Part shown: piece after piece, positions 39,705-50,375 of the stretch
Position numbering within the stretch: position 1 is the first letter of the stretch
Layout of the letters: the number at the start of each line of letters is the position of its first letter
Assembly (NCBI RefSeq): GCF_030418305.1
Contig: NZ_JAUHPX010000003.1
Location: forward strand, 248,001 to 312,000
From: Demequina lignilytica
GTDB lineage: Bacteria > Actinomycetota > Actinomycetes > Actinomycetales > Demequinaceae
DNA length: 64,000 nucleotides
Direction of reading: 5' to 3'
The notes under the pieces: generated by a model
Database searches by the model: none
Told to the model about the DNA's origin: nothing
Seen by the model: only the letters and a program-made list of their open reading frames with translations
Program-made: the position numbers and the translations under genes

Positions 39705-39837
39705 TCGGGACACTCAGTCCTCCGAATCTGCTGAATCGCGGGCTCTCGGGACACTCAGTCCTCATCCGGCCCATCGAAGAGGACTGACTGTCCCGGGAAC
39801 GCGAGATCCGGCTCGAGATGAGGACTGGCTGTCCCGA
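39705..39837. repeat. 133-bp palindromic array of four 17-18 bp repeats
   Basis: TCGGGACACTCAGTCCTC occurs at 39705-39721 (one base shorter) and 39746-39763. Its reverse complement, with 1-2 changes, occurs at 39779-39795 (GAGGACTGACTGTCCCG) and 39820-39837 (GAGGACTGGCTGTCCCGA). Repeat starts are 41 bp apart within each arm, so the array is a symmetric palindrome. The 243-nt gap between the three-HTH gene and the ArsR gene is mostly this array. Confidence 0.85.
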
Positions 39838-47158: not shown

Positions 47159-47770
47159 ATGGGAGCGACAGAAGGCCGTCTGAGCAGCGAGGACAGGCGC
47201 GAGCAGATCCTCGCCGCCGCCACGGCGGTGTTCGGGGAGCGCGGCTACGCCGGCGGGACCACCGACGCGATCGCGCGCGAGGCGGGCATCTCGCAGGCCT
47301 ACGTGGTGCGCATGTTCGGATCGAAGGAGCAGCTGTTCCTCGAGGTCGCCCGCCGCGCCGTGGGGCGCCTCGAGGCCGAGTTCCGCGCGGTCATCTCGCA
47401 GTTCTCGGGCGAGGAGACGATGCTCGAGCGCCAGTCCGCGCTCGGGCGGGCGTACGGCGAGCTGGTCGCCGACCGCGGGATCCTGCTGTCGCTGCTGCAC
47501 CTGTTCGGCCTCGGCCACGACCCGGTGTTCGGGCCCGAGGCGCGGGACTCCTTCCTCGGGGTCTACCGCCTGGTGCGCGAGGAGGCCGGCTTCTCACCCG
47601 AGGACGCCACCGACTTCTTCGCCCGCGGGATGCTCAACACCATCCTTCTCGCGATGCGCATGCCGGACCGCAAGGAGGACCCGATGGCCTTCGAGCTGCT
47701 CAGCACGAGCATGGGTCCCCAATGCGAGGCGATCCTCGCGCTGTACGAGGACGCACCGGCCCGCGCGTGA
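47159..47770 (+). CDS. TetR-family repressor of the adjacent exporter
   Basis: The 203-residue protein has a TetR winged-helix-like HTH (REQILAAATAVFGERGYAGG, recognition helix ISQAYVVRMFGSKEQLFLEV) and a helical ligand-binding domain (residues about 70-200). Its gene diverges from the DHA2 exporter across the two palindromes, which fits an efflux repressor released by the drug. The start at 47159 is 8 nt after the second palindrome. Confidence 0.9.
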   Translation: MGATEGRLSSEDRREQILAAATAVFGERGYAGGTTDAIAREAGISQAYVVRMFGSKEQLFLEVARRAVGRLEAEFRAVISQFSGEETMLERQSALGRAYGELVADRGILLSLLHLFGLGHDPVFGPEARDSFLGVYRLVREEAGFSPEDATDFFARGMLNTILLAMRMPDRKEDPMAFELLSTSMGPQCEAILALYEDAPARA

Positions 47771-47805: not shown

Positions 47806-47862
47806 CCTGTGAGGAGATGAGGGTACGAATCGGCGCGATTCGTACCCTCATCTCCTCACAGG
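47806..47862. repeat. Perfect 27-bp hairpin, copy 1 (DUF559 gene 3' side)
   Basis: A 27-bp perfect stem (left arm begins CCTGTGAGGAGATGAGG, loop GCG) at 47806-47862. It is nearly identical to copy 2 at 48849-48907 and lies at the other end of the nuclease gene. The gene's TGA stop (47856-47858) is inside the hairpin arm. Confidence 0.88.
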
Positions 47863-48782
47863 GCCCGGGTCAGGCGGGCCGCGAGCACCTGCACAAGCCG
47901 ATCGCGGCACCAGTCGGGCCTCCGGACCAGGTCGTCCCATCCGAATCGGACGGTGAGGTAGCCCGCCGCGGCAAGGTCGGTGGACCGCTCGCGGTCACGC
48001 TGCTGCGCCGCGCGCGACGAGTGATAGCGATGCCCGTCGAGCTCGACCACCAGCCGCGCCGCGCGGTGGAGCATGTCGGCCTGCACCCGCCGGCCGCGGA
48101 GGCACAGCTCTGCTTGCCACTCGAAGGCGGCGAAGCGCGGGTCGGCGAACGTCTCGTAGCGGGCTCGCACCTCGAGCGGCGTGGTGGCTCCCGCCTCGAA
48201 CCATCCCAGGACGCGCTGGAGCTCGTGGCGCGCAGGCACGCGTGGCGTGCGCGCAAGCTCTCTCCGCACCTGCTGCCAGGTGCAGATCCGGGACCACAAG
48301 GCCTGGTAGAGCACCTCTCGGCGGCCCGATGGTGGGGCGGTGCTCCACGCATCGATGACCGCGCGCTCAGTGGTGACCGTGGTGACGCCTCGCGCGCTCA
48401 TCGTGACCCGGCCCAGCGCCCCCTGTCGGAGTCGCACCCATGCCGGAACCCGGTGGTGCTGTCCCGACAGCACCGCGTAGTCCGCAACAGGCGGATTCGG
48501 TAGCGGTACCGCATGCAGGTGGAGTGCCAGCGCCCCGGTCACGGCGCCCCCGGGCTGCCACAGGTTGAGGGCCTCGCCGCGCACCACGGGGTCGTCGCGG
48601 TGGGTCGCCGCGCAGTACACACCGGGGAGGATGCGTGTGACTACCCCGCTCATGACGCCGTTCTCGAGTCGGCGCCGTGACCACGCGCGCACCAGCTCTG
48701 CGCGGGTGAAGGCGTGAGCGTGAGCGACGAGGAACTCGTCGAGCCGGCCGGTGGGCGCAGGCACGCCGGGAAGGAGGCGCAT
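47856..48782 (-). CDS. DUF559 (Vsr-like) nuclease-domain protein flanked by hairpins
   Basis: The 308-residue protein has an N-terminal part with RLDEFLVAHAHAFTRAELVR and VVTRILPGVYCAA, resembling the winged-helix of AbiEi-type regulators, and a C-terminal PD-(D/E)xK-like DUF559 domain with ELDGHRYHSSRAAQQRDRER and GYLTVRFGWDDLVRRPDWC. DUF559 relatives are compared with the Vsr mismatch endonuclease; targets are unknown. The final codons and the stop are supplied by hairpin copy 1, and hairpin copy 2 lies upstream of the start, so gene and hairpins look like one unit. Confidence 0.8.
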   Translation of the reverse strand: MRLLPGVPAPTGRLDEFLVAHAHAFTRAELVRAWSRRRLENGVMSGVVTRILPGVYCAATHRDDPVVRGEALNLWQPGGAVTGALALHLHAVPLPNPPVADYAVLSGQHHRVPAWVRLRQGALGRVTMSARGVTTVTTERAVIDAWSTAPPSGRREVLYQALWSRICTWQQVRRELARTPRVPARHELQRVLGWFEAGATTPLEVRARYETFADPRFAAFEWQAELCLRGRRVQADMLHRAARLVVELDGHRYHSSRAAQQRDRERSTDLAAAGYLTVRFGWDDLVRRPDWCRDRLVQVLAARLTRAL

Positions 48783-48848
48783 CCCACCATGAGACCGTCC
48801 CGAGCGAGATCACCGGCGGTGGCAACTGCATCTGTGGACAGCTGTGCT

Positions 48849-48907
48849 CCCTGTGAGGAGTTGAGGGTACGAATGTGCACGATTCGTACCCTCAACTCCT
48901 CACAGGG
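48849..48907. repeat. Perfect 26-bp hairpin, copy 2 (DUF559 gene 5' side)
   Basis: A perfect 26-bp stem (left arm begins CCCTGTGAGGAGTTGAGG, 7-nt loop GTGCACG) at 48849-48907. Compared with copy 1, one internal pair changes from A-T to T-A in both arms, so the pairing is preserved. It lies 67 nt upstream of the nuclease start. Confidence 0.88.
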
Positions 48908-48929: not shown

Positions 48930-50375
48930 TCAGTCGGAGGCCGGGGCGGCCTCGATCTCGGAGGTCCGCACCGGCGGCTCGTAGGTGCCGAGCGGCATCC
49001 GGATGGTCACCGTGGTGCCCTCGCCCTCGACCGACTCCACCGCGAGGGTGCCGCCGTGGGCGTCCACGATCGCCGAGGTGATCGCGAGCCCCAGGCCGGA
49101 GCCACCGGTCGAGCGGGCGCGGGAGCCGTCGCCGCGCACGAAGCGCTCGGTCGCGCGGGCGGCCATCTCCGGCGTCATGCCCGGGCCGTCGTCGATGACC
49201 TGCACCACGCCGTCGTCGCCGTCGACCCGCACCCGCACCGTGATCGCCGAGCCGCCATGGACGGCGGCGTTGGTGACCAGGTTGATCACGGCCTGCCGCA
49301 ACTTGTCCGCGTCGCCCACCACGGGCACCGCGACCGGGGCGTCGACGGTGAACGAGACGCCCTCGCGTGCGGCCCGGGCGTCGCCCACGACCTCGGCGCC
49401 GAGCGTCGCGAGGTCGACCGTGACGAGCATCAGCTGGGGCTCGGCGTCGAAGCGTGCGAGCTCGAGCATGTCCTCGACCAGGCGTCGCATCCGCGAGGCC
49501 TCCGCCTCCGTGCGACCCCAGGCGTCCGCGACGTCCTCGTCCTGGCGCAGCGCGCCGCGGCGGTACAGCTCGGCGTACCCGAGCACGGTGGTCAGCGGCG
49601 TCCGCAGCTCGTGGGAGGCGTCGGCCACGAACTCCCGCAGCCGCGCCTCGGACCGCTCGCGCTCGTCGAGCGCGTCGGTGAGGGTGCCGATCATGGTGTT
49701 GAGCGACTGCGCGAGCTCCGCGCTCTCCGACCCGTGGCCCACGCCCTCGAGGCGCACGTCGAGGTCACCGTCCGCGATCCTCGCGCTCGCGTCGACCATC
49801 CGGCGCATGGGAGAGATGCCGAGCCGGATGACCCACCAGCCGACCACGCTGAGCCCGATGAGCGTCGCCCCGATGCTGATGGCCTCGATCACGATCAGCT
49901 GCTGCGTGGTCGACTCGACGGAGTCGAGGGGCAGCGCGGTGAGGTCGGTGCCGAGGGCGGACACGCGCGCGTAGACGCGCCACTCGCCCTCGCCGTCGGA
50001 CGACGGCACCGTGAAGTACGCGTCCCCGGTCTCGGGGAGGTCGTCGAGGGTCAGCACGGGCGAGGCGTCGGTGCTGCCGATCGTGTTGGGTGCGACGATC
50101 CCGCCGAGCTCGCCGGAGGAGAGCAGGAAGGCGCGCCAGGCGTCGGAGGGGCGCGCGTACTCGCGCCGGAGGTCGTTCGGGTCGACCAGCTCCGGGTCCT
50201 GATCGCTCTCCCGCAGCGGGATGGCGAACGAGTCGAGCCGCTCGTCTAGCTGGACCACCAGGTGCGAATGGGTGACCGCCGTCACGGCGATCGCGGCGGC
50301 GACCGCGACGGCGGCGATCGAGCCCAGGCCGATCAGGACGCGGGCCCGCAGGGACAGGCTGCCGCGACGGGTCAC
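48930..50375 (-). CDS. Sensor histidine kinase
   Basis: GTG 50375 overlaps the response-regulator stop (GTGA) and gives 481 residues. It has a membrane helix (VLIGLGSIAAVAVAAAIAVT), an extracytoplasmic sensor region (about 40-170), a second helix (IGATLIGLSVVGWWVIRLGI), a HAMP segment, then HisKA DASHELRTPLTTVLGYAELY with the phospho-accepting His and an ATPase domain with NLVTNAAVHGGSA, IDDGPGMTP and STGGSGLGLAI. It is the partner of the OmpR-type regulator. The stimulus is unknown, but the neighbouring VTC/DUF4956 genes suggest an envelope or surface signal. Confidence 0.92.
   Translation of the reverse strand: MTRRGSLSLRARVLIGLGSIAAVAVAAAIAVTAVTHSHLVVQLDERLDSFAIPLRESDQDPELVDPNDLRREYARPSDAWRAFLLSSGELGGIVAPNTIGSTDASPVLTLDDLPETGDAYFTVPSSDGEGEWRVYARVSALGTDLTALPLDSVESTTQQLIVIEAISIGATLIGLSVVGWWVIRLGISPMRRMVDASARIADGDLDVRLEGVGHGSESAELAQSLNTMIGTLTDALDERERSEARLREFVADASHELRTPLTTVLGYAELYRRGALRQDEDVADAWGRTEAEASRMRRLVEDMLELARFDAEPQLMLVTVDLATLGAEVVGDARAAREGVSFTVDAPVAVPVVGDADKLRQAVINLVTNAAVHGGSAITVRVRVDGDDGVVQVIDDGPGMTPEMAARATERFVRGDGSRARSTGGSGLGLAITSAIVDAHGGTLAVESVEGEGTTVTIRMPLGTYEPPVRTSEIEAAPASD

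Follow-up and report, generated by a model that had tools for sequence, protein, structure and literature searches.

We found that many members of a family of AbiEi-like/DUF559 nuclease genes carry a long palindrome on one or both sides, the wording of which is specific to the member and follows the protein phylogeny. The gene that prompted the analysis, from Demequina lignilytica, is enclosed by two near-identical hairpins and is one instance of this general architecture of nuclease gene and flanking palindromes. The arrangement suggests that an enzyme and DNA marks private to it work as partners, and we regard as evenly poised the proposition that the nuclease has its own cognate palindromes, which it would bind, cut and mobilise much as a REPtron does, using an unrelated enzyme.

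The window that was analysed is a stretch of 64,000 nt from D. lignilytica (assembly GCF_030418305.1, contig NZ_JAUHPX010000003.1, positions 248,001-312,000, forward strand). The nuclease gene lies on the minus strand at 47856..48782 and encodes 308 amino acids. Its downstream palindrome (47806..47862, no strand assigned) is a perfect 27-bp stem with a loop of 3, and its upstream palindrome (48849..48907, likewise without strand) is a perfect 26-bp stem with a loop of 7 that lies 66 bp before the start codon. An earlier note on this DNA had described two perfect hairpins flanking the gene, with the stop codon inside the left one and stems differing at one internal pair in both arms, and each of these points was borne out: arms 47806-47832 and 47836-47862 pair at 27/27 positions, arms 48849-48874 and 48882-48907 at 26/26, the stop codon occupies 47856-47858, and the single differing pair is A-T in one stem and T-A in the other; the loops differ as well. 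Compared over 58 nt the two palindromes are 91% identical. They have a 33-nt core, TGAGGGT-19-ACCCTCA, and feet that read, by eye, CCTG..CAGG. In a hairpin scan of the window the longest perfect stem after this pair was only 16 bp, so that chance is not a credible explanation for the two hairpins; this runner-up, together with the palindromes found beside relatives of the gene, led us to reject the idea of an isolated curiosity. A lone palindrome at 39747-39795 (17 bp with one mismatch, 33-nt core) may be what is left of a similar element.

Within the 2.9-Mb genome assembly (98.8% complete, 18 contigs) the 13-mer TGAGGGTACGAAT has exactly four occurrences, each inside the focal arms, and one more site elsewhere in the genome matches it with one mismatch; this search of the 2.9 Mb returned no third copy of the focal palindrome. 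The focal arm pattern is also absent from the remaining 43 genomes of the genus. A fixed, widespread sequence was rejected as an explanation, the arm pattern having 21 matches among genome_contigs, which are spread over scattered taxa, and a further 2 in viral_contigs. We did note that four contigs of one Gracilibacteria bin (L011, L012, L013 and L017) each have a palindrome fitting the pattern, perhaps an unrelated interspersed palindrome of that genome.

The focal protein belongs to a family in which an AbiEi-like winged-helix protein is fused with a nuclease domain of Vsr-like PD-(D/E)XK type. The nuclease stretch of the focal protein (residues 235-299; 47886..48080, minus strand) is matched by Pfam DUF559 at 31.1 bits, above the cut-off of 20.6, and by MTES_1575 at 34.8 bits, slightly under the cut-off of 38.2, and the nearest solved structure by profile is PDB 3hrl, an endonuclease-like protein (E 5.8e-4). 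An alignment of 39 relatives shows no variation at E204, Q223, D236, E247, D249, H254, D263 and R266, as would be expected of an active PD-(D/E)XK-type nuclease, a catalytic role that is predicted from the alignment. The AbiEi_4-like DNA-binding stretch (residues 13-58; 48609..48746, minus strand) stays below the Pfam cut-off (E 0.0082; 16.7 bits, cut-off 25) and matches the PADLOC AbiEi model weakly (E 0.012); a relative from another family, L231, matches the same model at E 8.8e-16 over residues 23-182. A structure model of the focal protein from its single sequence was poor (pLDDT 46.5) and was left unused. Relatives of the protein (E <= 1e-10) were found in all 44 genomes of the genus, at 1-7 per genome and 173 matches altogether.

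The surroundings of 61 loci were examined: the focal window, and 60 relatives from the genus that were drawn mostly from the top scorers among the 173 matches and taken with up to 5 kb of DNA on either side. A strict scan, which tolerated no more than 2 mismatches among 15 outer pairs around a core of 33 or 34 nt and ignored the inner 19-20 nt, found 61 palindromes within 300 bp of the 61 genes, or 1493 per Mb. The rest of the same stretches held 26 (42 per Mb), so the density near the genes is 35 times that of the surrounding DNA, and order-1 shuffles gave 12.7 per Mb. At least one palindrome lay within 300 bp at 43 of the 61 loci (both sides at 16, downstream only at 22, upstream only at 5), and at 18 the strict scan found none in that range. 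By a crude rule 7 of the 61 palindromes resemble GC-rich terminators, and dropping them leaves 38 of the 61 loci. Loci with a palindrome made up 32 of the 42 nearer relatives (identity >= 46%) and 11 of the 19 others. In 20 of the 40 downstream palindromes the core starts exactly at the stop codon, whose TGA doubles as the first three letters of the core TGAGNGN; relative to this register the focal stop codon is displaced outwards by eight bases. On the upstream side the distance from palindrome to matched gene start is 72-210 bp. At several loci the arms measure 24-29 bp and contain one mismatch or none.

A looser search gave candidates on both sides of the gene at 23 of the 61 loci. In a fixed register the arms of the two sides share 13.4 of 16 letters at the same locus, as against 8.2 of 16 between loci, and none of 2000 permutations did as well. 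Loci L137, L143 and L134 are low in this comparison; when a shift of register was allowed, 20 of the 23 two-sided loci passed a threshold of 20 of 32 arm letters, L134 among them once shifted, and by eye the outer arms of L137 and L143 agree after a one-base shift. The downstream hairpin of L123 has a terminator-like look. Paralogues in the same genome agree at just 4-9 of 16 arm letters, and in the focal genome itself the palindrome pairs of the focal gene and of paralogue L096 are unrelated (7-8 of 16). The palindrome type therefore belongs to the gene and not to the genome. Read by eye, the types form clades on the protein tree, for example GAGGTGCTCAGTGC, GGGACATGAG, CTTACATCTGG and GGAGGTTGGTGCGAG. 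Partner palindromes differ by 4 double, pair-keeping changes against 55 single ones, so no argument can be drawn from compensatory change, and the double change of the focal pair is atypical. Stem mismatches read on the sense strand were 12 A-C against 3 G-T downstream and 7 against 3 upstream, which are small numbers.

The focal site is bordered on the left by a TetR-family gene (47159..47770, plus strand) and on the right by a sensor histidine kinase gene (48930..50249, minus strand; stop at 48930, start approximate). In 10 sister species these two genes adjoin each other with neither nuclease gene nor palindrome between them; in an eleventh, G016, they lie close together. Neither the nuclease gene nor a palindrome was found at this place in any of 29 sister kinase loci. 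The earlier note had proposed a gene unit with defined ends and had asked after empty sites among close strains; such sites are thus present in 10 sister genomes and, along with the matching palindrome pairs at relatives, support the proposal well. The intergenic DNA of the sisters is too diverged for the junction to be placed to the base.

Grouped by their neighbouring genes, the 61 loci represent 21 contexts, and 25 of the 61 genes, from 25 genomes, occupy one inherited position between rho and prfA (gene names read from translations), so that movement of the gene is rare at best. The palindromes at this site differ between species. It was inspected in 20 genomes: the gene is present in G013 and G014, a lone palindrome of the family stands there with no gene in G024, G025, G017, G012 and G043, the focal genome has a palindrome of another type, 11 remaining genomes have terminator-like hairpins only or none, and in G035 the contig ends. 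Since rho was reached in G024, G017, G012, G043 and the focal genome, there is no gene between rho and prfA in these five; in G025 rho was not reached, and its three gene matches are on other contigs. In G043 and G017 the lone palindrome has the same type as the flanks of the gene at its location elsewhere in that genome.

Two further features of these regions can be mentioned. In several genomes (L099, L109, L118) a small sigma-factor-like gene pair is also found at the rho-prfA site, and L109 and L118 have a further palindrome beyond this pair, about 1.3 kb from the nuclease gene. The second palindrome type of the focal genome, with GGATC(C/G)GTGCAC-like arms, occurs at 1534-1583 of the window, in L266 (the rho-prfA site) and near position 10050 of L151, with no DUF559 gene directly beside it; the window copy is somewhat different.

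An order-wide search matched 28 of 297 genomes, 23 of them of the same genus, and a class-wide search with the L231 protein matched 16 of 394, the focal genome included. Among 22 loci from outside the genus only L231 and L232, from another family, have matching palindromes on both sides. Six (L239, L240, L252, L243, L245 and L246) have a long hairpin on one side within about 320 bp, L230 has two that do not match and L236 has one 400 bp away; at 12 of the 22 no hairpin was found, several of the 22 being cut by contig ends.

Palindromes of this kind are also dispersed away from the genes. The pattern TGAGTGC-N6-36-GCACTCA is present in 32 of the 44 genomes in up to 13 copies, gene-flanking ones included, with at most 2 for the reversed control, and among the matches listed its span is nearly always 33-34 nt. 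A second pattern type is present in 10 of the 44 genomes in up to 11 copies, with 0 for its control. Around dispersed sites in six genomes, 20 stretches of 8-14 kb were chosen away from known copies of the gene, and none of them was found to contain a DUF559 gene. The earlier note had held that hairpins in many places without the gene would count against it; here the outcome was mixed, the exact focal palindrome being found nowhere else in its own genome and related palindromes standing free of the gene in sister species. When 39 distinct dispersed palindromes were compared with gene flanks, the flanks of their own genome were best or tied best for 20, with a mean agreement of 16.4 of 20 letters as against 12.5 of 20 for other genomes. 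Own-flank best matches were 4/4 in G021, 8/10 in G022, 4/7 in G016 and 0/3 in G015, several single palindromes failed, and 12 of the 20 come from G021 and G022. In G006, G009 and G024 there are dispersed palindromes without a matching flanked gene among the loci examined. We conclude that the dispersed palindromes fit a cognate relationship only in part.

It can also be seen that palindromes get copied, at least sometimes with little else, and sometimes as units of about 66 nt. Genome G010 has two that are identical over 69/69 nt and diverge on both sides, the unit running from GCGCCCT to AGGGCGC; both belong to one DUF559 locus (L135), one over the gene end and the other about 0.7 kb before the gene, with a third copy (92%) between them. 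Because the identical two lie at one locus, gene conversion could explain them. In G021 two palindromes 1.4 kb apart are 95.7% identical over 70 nt, with no DUF559 gene near. Two other duplications exceed one palindrome and could reflect ordinary recombination: in G020, 100 nt at 99% identity, 45 nt of it outside the palindrome, and in G022, a segment of 497 bp that both begins and ends with a palindrome and has a second copy, 99.6% identical, at a distance of 23 kb. The G022 segment (L203 3942-4420, and L204) looks like a miniature composite element.

The RAYT/Y1 transposase family (PF01797) was found in 0 of the 44 genomes, the same search being positive in 5 of 14 control genomes, and we therefore rejected RAYT-driven REPs. 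Phage, plasmid or viral carriage was rejected as well, as relatives were found neither in phage records nor in viral contigs and plasmids gave one weak partial match. The suggestion in the earlier note that the unit might be mobile stays plausible; 25 of the 61 genes are at one inherited site, neither the exact junction nor a target duplication could be resolved, and the copies seen are of palindromes or short segments.

On the cognate reading, the two hairpins would serve the enzyme whose gene they enclose as recognition elements private to it. Two protein molecules may sit on one palindrome, as AbiEi does on paired inverted repeats of about 23 bp. Streptococcus AbiEi is described as binding its promoter at two inverted repeats of 23 bp that are separated by 3 bp, and Rv2827c as binding pairs of repeats separated by 13 bp (PMC7319586); since the relatives' palindromes often have arms of 20-29 bp with gaps of 3-20 bp, binding by two molecules is a natural inference. 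Binding upstream would also repress the gene. From the association, the copies and the lack of a Y1 match in all 44 genomes, we infer that the nuclease acts at the palindromes and spreads them: at a low rate it would copy or move them to new intergenic sites, and rarely it might move a whole palindrome-gene-palindrome unit to such a site. The focal copy would be one such unit, lodged where sister species have an empty site. More tentatively, this may be a second, independently evolved system of interspersed palindromes, in which an AbiEi-DUF559 PD-(D/E)XK nuclease, not a HUH transposase, copies and maintains the elements, and in which enzyme and palindrome co-evolve so that each gene has its private element on both sides.

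The main rival reading is plain autoregulation, in which an AbiEi-like repressor that also has a nuclease domain uses the palindromes as operators and nothing is moved by the protein itself; the upstream site would repress the promoter, the downstream site would aid looping or block transcripts, and the dispersed copies would be operators or relics. In its favour, AbiEi and Rv2827c are both described as binding their own promoters at paired 23-bp inverted repeats (PMC7319586), the upstream palindromes are 72-210 bp ahead of the matched gene start, the agreement between partners and within clades is expected of any DNA-binding protein and its sites, 25 genes keep a stable, inherited position, and the scarcity of pair-keeping double changes suits a duplex site. 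Autoregulation alone explains the upstream site and the specificity; it accounts less readily for the copies and for the matching palindrome that is joined to the stop codon in a fixed register. The 24-29 bp arms of several loci, which have one mismatch or none, the copying of palindromes with little else and the palindromes that stand at the rho-prfA site without the gene also tell against it, and as a full account we consider it rather unlikely. That the palindromes act instead in the transcript, as mRNA ends, stabilisers or processing sites, would suit long perfect stems of which one lies at the stop codon, and the earlier note had raised a role in mRNA processing. We found nothing to support this. 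Intrinsic terminators and known RNA families were both rejected, no terminator-like site and no Rfam match having been found, and the mismatches show no G-U bias on the sense strand, small as their numbers are. Copies also lie before the gene and in isolation elsewhere, and the 33-34 nt core is kept even without inner pairing, which is more suggestive of a duplex site with a fixed geometry than of an RNA hairpin, leaving the transcript reading highly improbable.

A free-standing homing endonuclease, as another alternative, would cut empty alleles and spread by repair, the palindromes being regulatory or border sequences carried along. The Vsr-like nuclease domain, the intergenic place with empty sites in sisters and the 21 contexts among 61 loci would all agree with this; the dispersal of palindromes without the gene, and the lack of any relative in phage records or viral contigs with one weak partial match in plasmids, do not. 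Homing units are not known to require matching terminal palindromes, which we also count against homing, and we think it improbable. By passive recombination, the common palindromes of some third-party element would have caught the gene between two of them, and host recombination would keep the pair alike. The genomes that have palindromes and no matching gene among the loci examined could be read in this way, as could the palindrome-bounded segment of G022 that was duplicated whole. The occurrence of gene-specific types within one genome, the agreement with the protein tree and the fixed stop-codon register argue otherwise, and make this origin quite improbable.

If the cognate reading is right, REP-like palindromes can arise with a different class of enzyme, which bears on the origin of palindromic repeats in genomes without RAYT genes. 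One genus would also offer a natural series of protein-palindrome pairs from which a recognition code might be read, and a function could be proposed for the AbiEi-like/DUF559 proteins found in all 44 genomes examined. In the openly licensed literature, searched by titles and the starts of abstracts, no description was found that links DUF559 or AbiEi-DUF559 genes to palindromes.

The closest resemblance is to the REPtron, or REPIN-RAYT system. RAYTs are described as vertically inherited, domesticated transposases with dispersed REPINs (PMC8049555), and their genes as flanked by REPs or long inverted repeats (PMC3733652). The likeness lies in a domesticated nuclease gene with palindromes at its flanks, in part in cognate palindromes dispersed in the same genome, and in mostly vertical inheritance, with plasmid carriage not observed in the accounts of these two sources (PMC8049555, PMC3733652). 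Flanks of one palindrome type are found at the focal pair, at 16 of 61 loci in the strict scan and at 20 of 23 two-sided loci; dispersed copies are present in sister genomes, the focal type having no further copy in its own. The systems differ in the enzyme, here of AbiEi-DUF559 PD-(D/E)XK type with a Y1 HUH transposase in 0 of 44 genomes, in the palindromes, which here are of about 66 nt with a 33-34 nt core and GCGCCCY ends in several genomes whereas REPs are GTAG-tagged, and in copy number, which is low here (up to 13 by one strict pattern). By eye no GTAG was found at the palindrome ends, neither at the focal feet (CCTG..CAGG) nor at the G010 ends (GCGCCCT..AGGGCGC). We conclude that the present system would work like a REPtron but is not a member of that class, as searches for the Y1 enzyme that defines it and inspection for the GTAG tag gave nothing. 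The IS200/IS605 elements are similar in that their nuclease gene lies between terminal secondary structures (PMC6006769), and differ in their enzyme; the palindromes here are symmetric and no Y1 transposase was found.

The type IV toxin-antitoxin system AbiE shares the AbiEi-like N-terminal part, clear in L231 and weak in the focal protein. In geometry only, its sites of two inverted repeats of about 23 bp (PMC7319586) recall the focal upstream arms of 26 bp with a gap of 7 nt. Here, however, there is a C-terminal nuclease domain, the sites lie on both sides of the gene and elsewhere, and at the focal locus the neighbours are TetR and histidine kinase genes, with no adjacent AbiEii (DUF1814) toxin gene. 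The EDxHD, or Vsr-like, homing endonucleases have a fold related to that of the focal nuclease. The free-standing ones are also alike in their intergenic place and empty alleles (family names as in PMC6083498), and the matching terminal palindromes and dispersed palindromes set the present genes apart from them. The focal protein belongs with the DUF559/MTES_1575 Vsr-like nucleases by its DUF559 match and by E204, D236, E247 and D249, invariant in 39 sequences. The MTES_1575 domain, which the focal protein matches slightly under the cut-off, is described as a Vsr-family REase forming part of a very large HEPN protein (PMC3710099); here, in contrast, such a nuclease is joined to an AbiEi-like portion and associated with palindromes.
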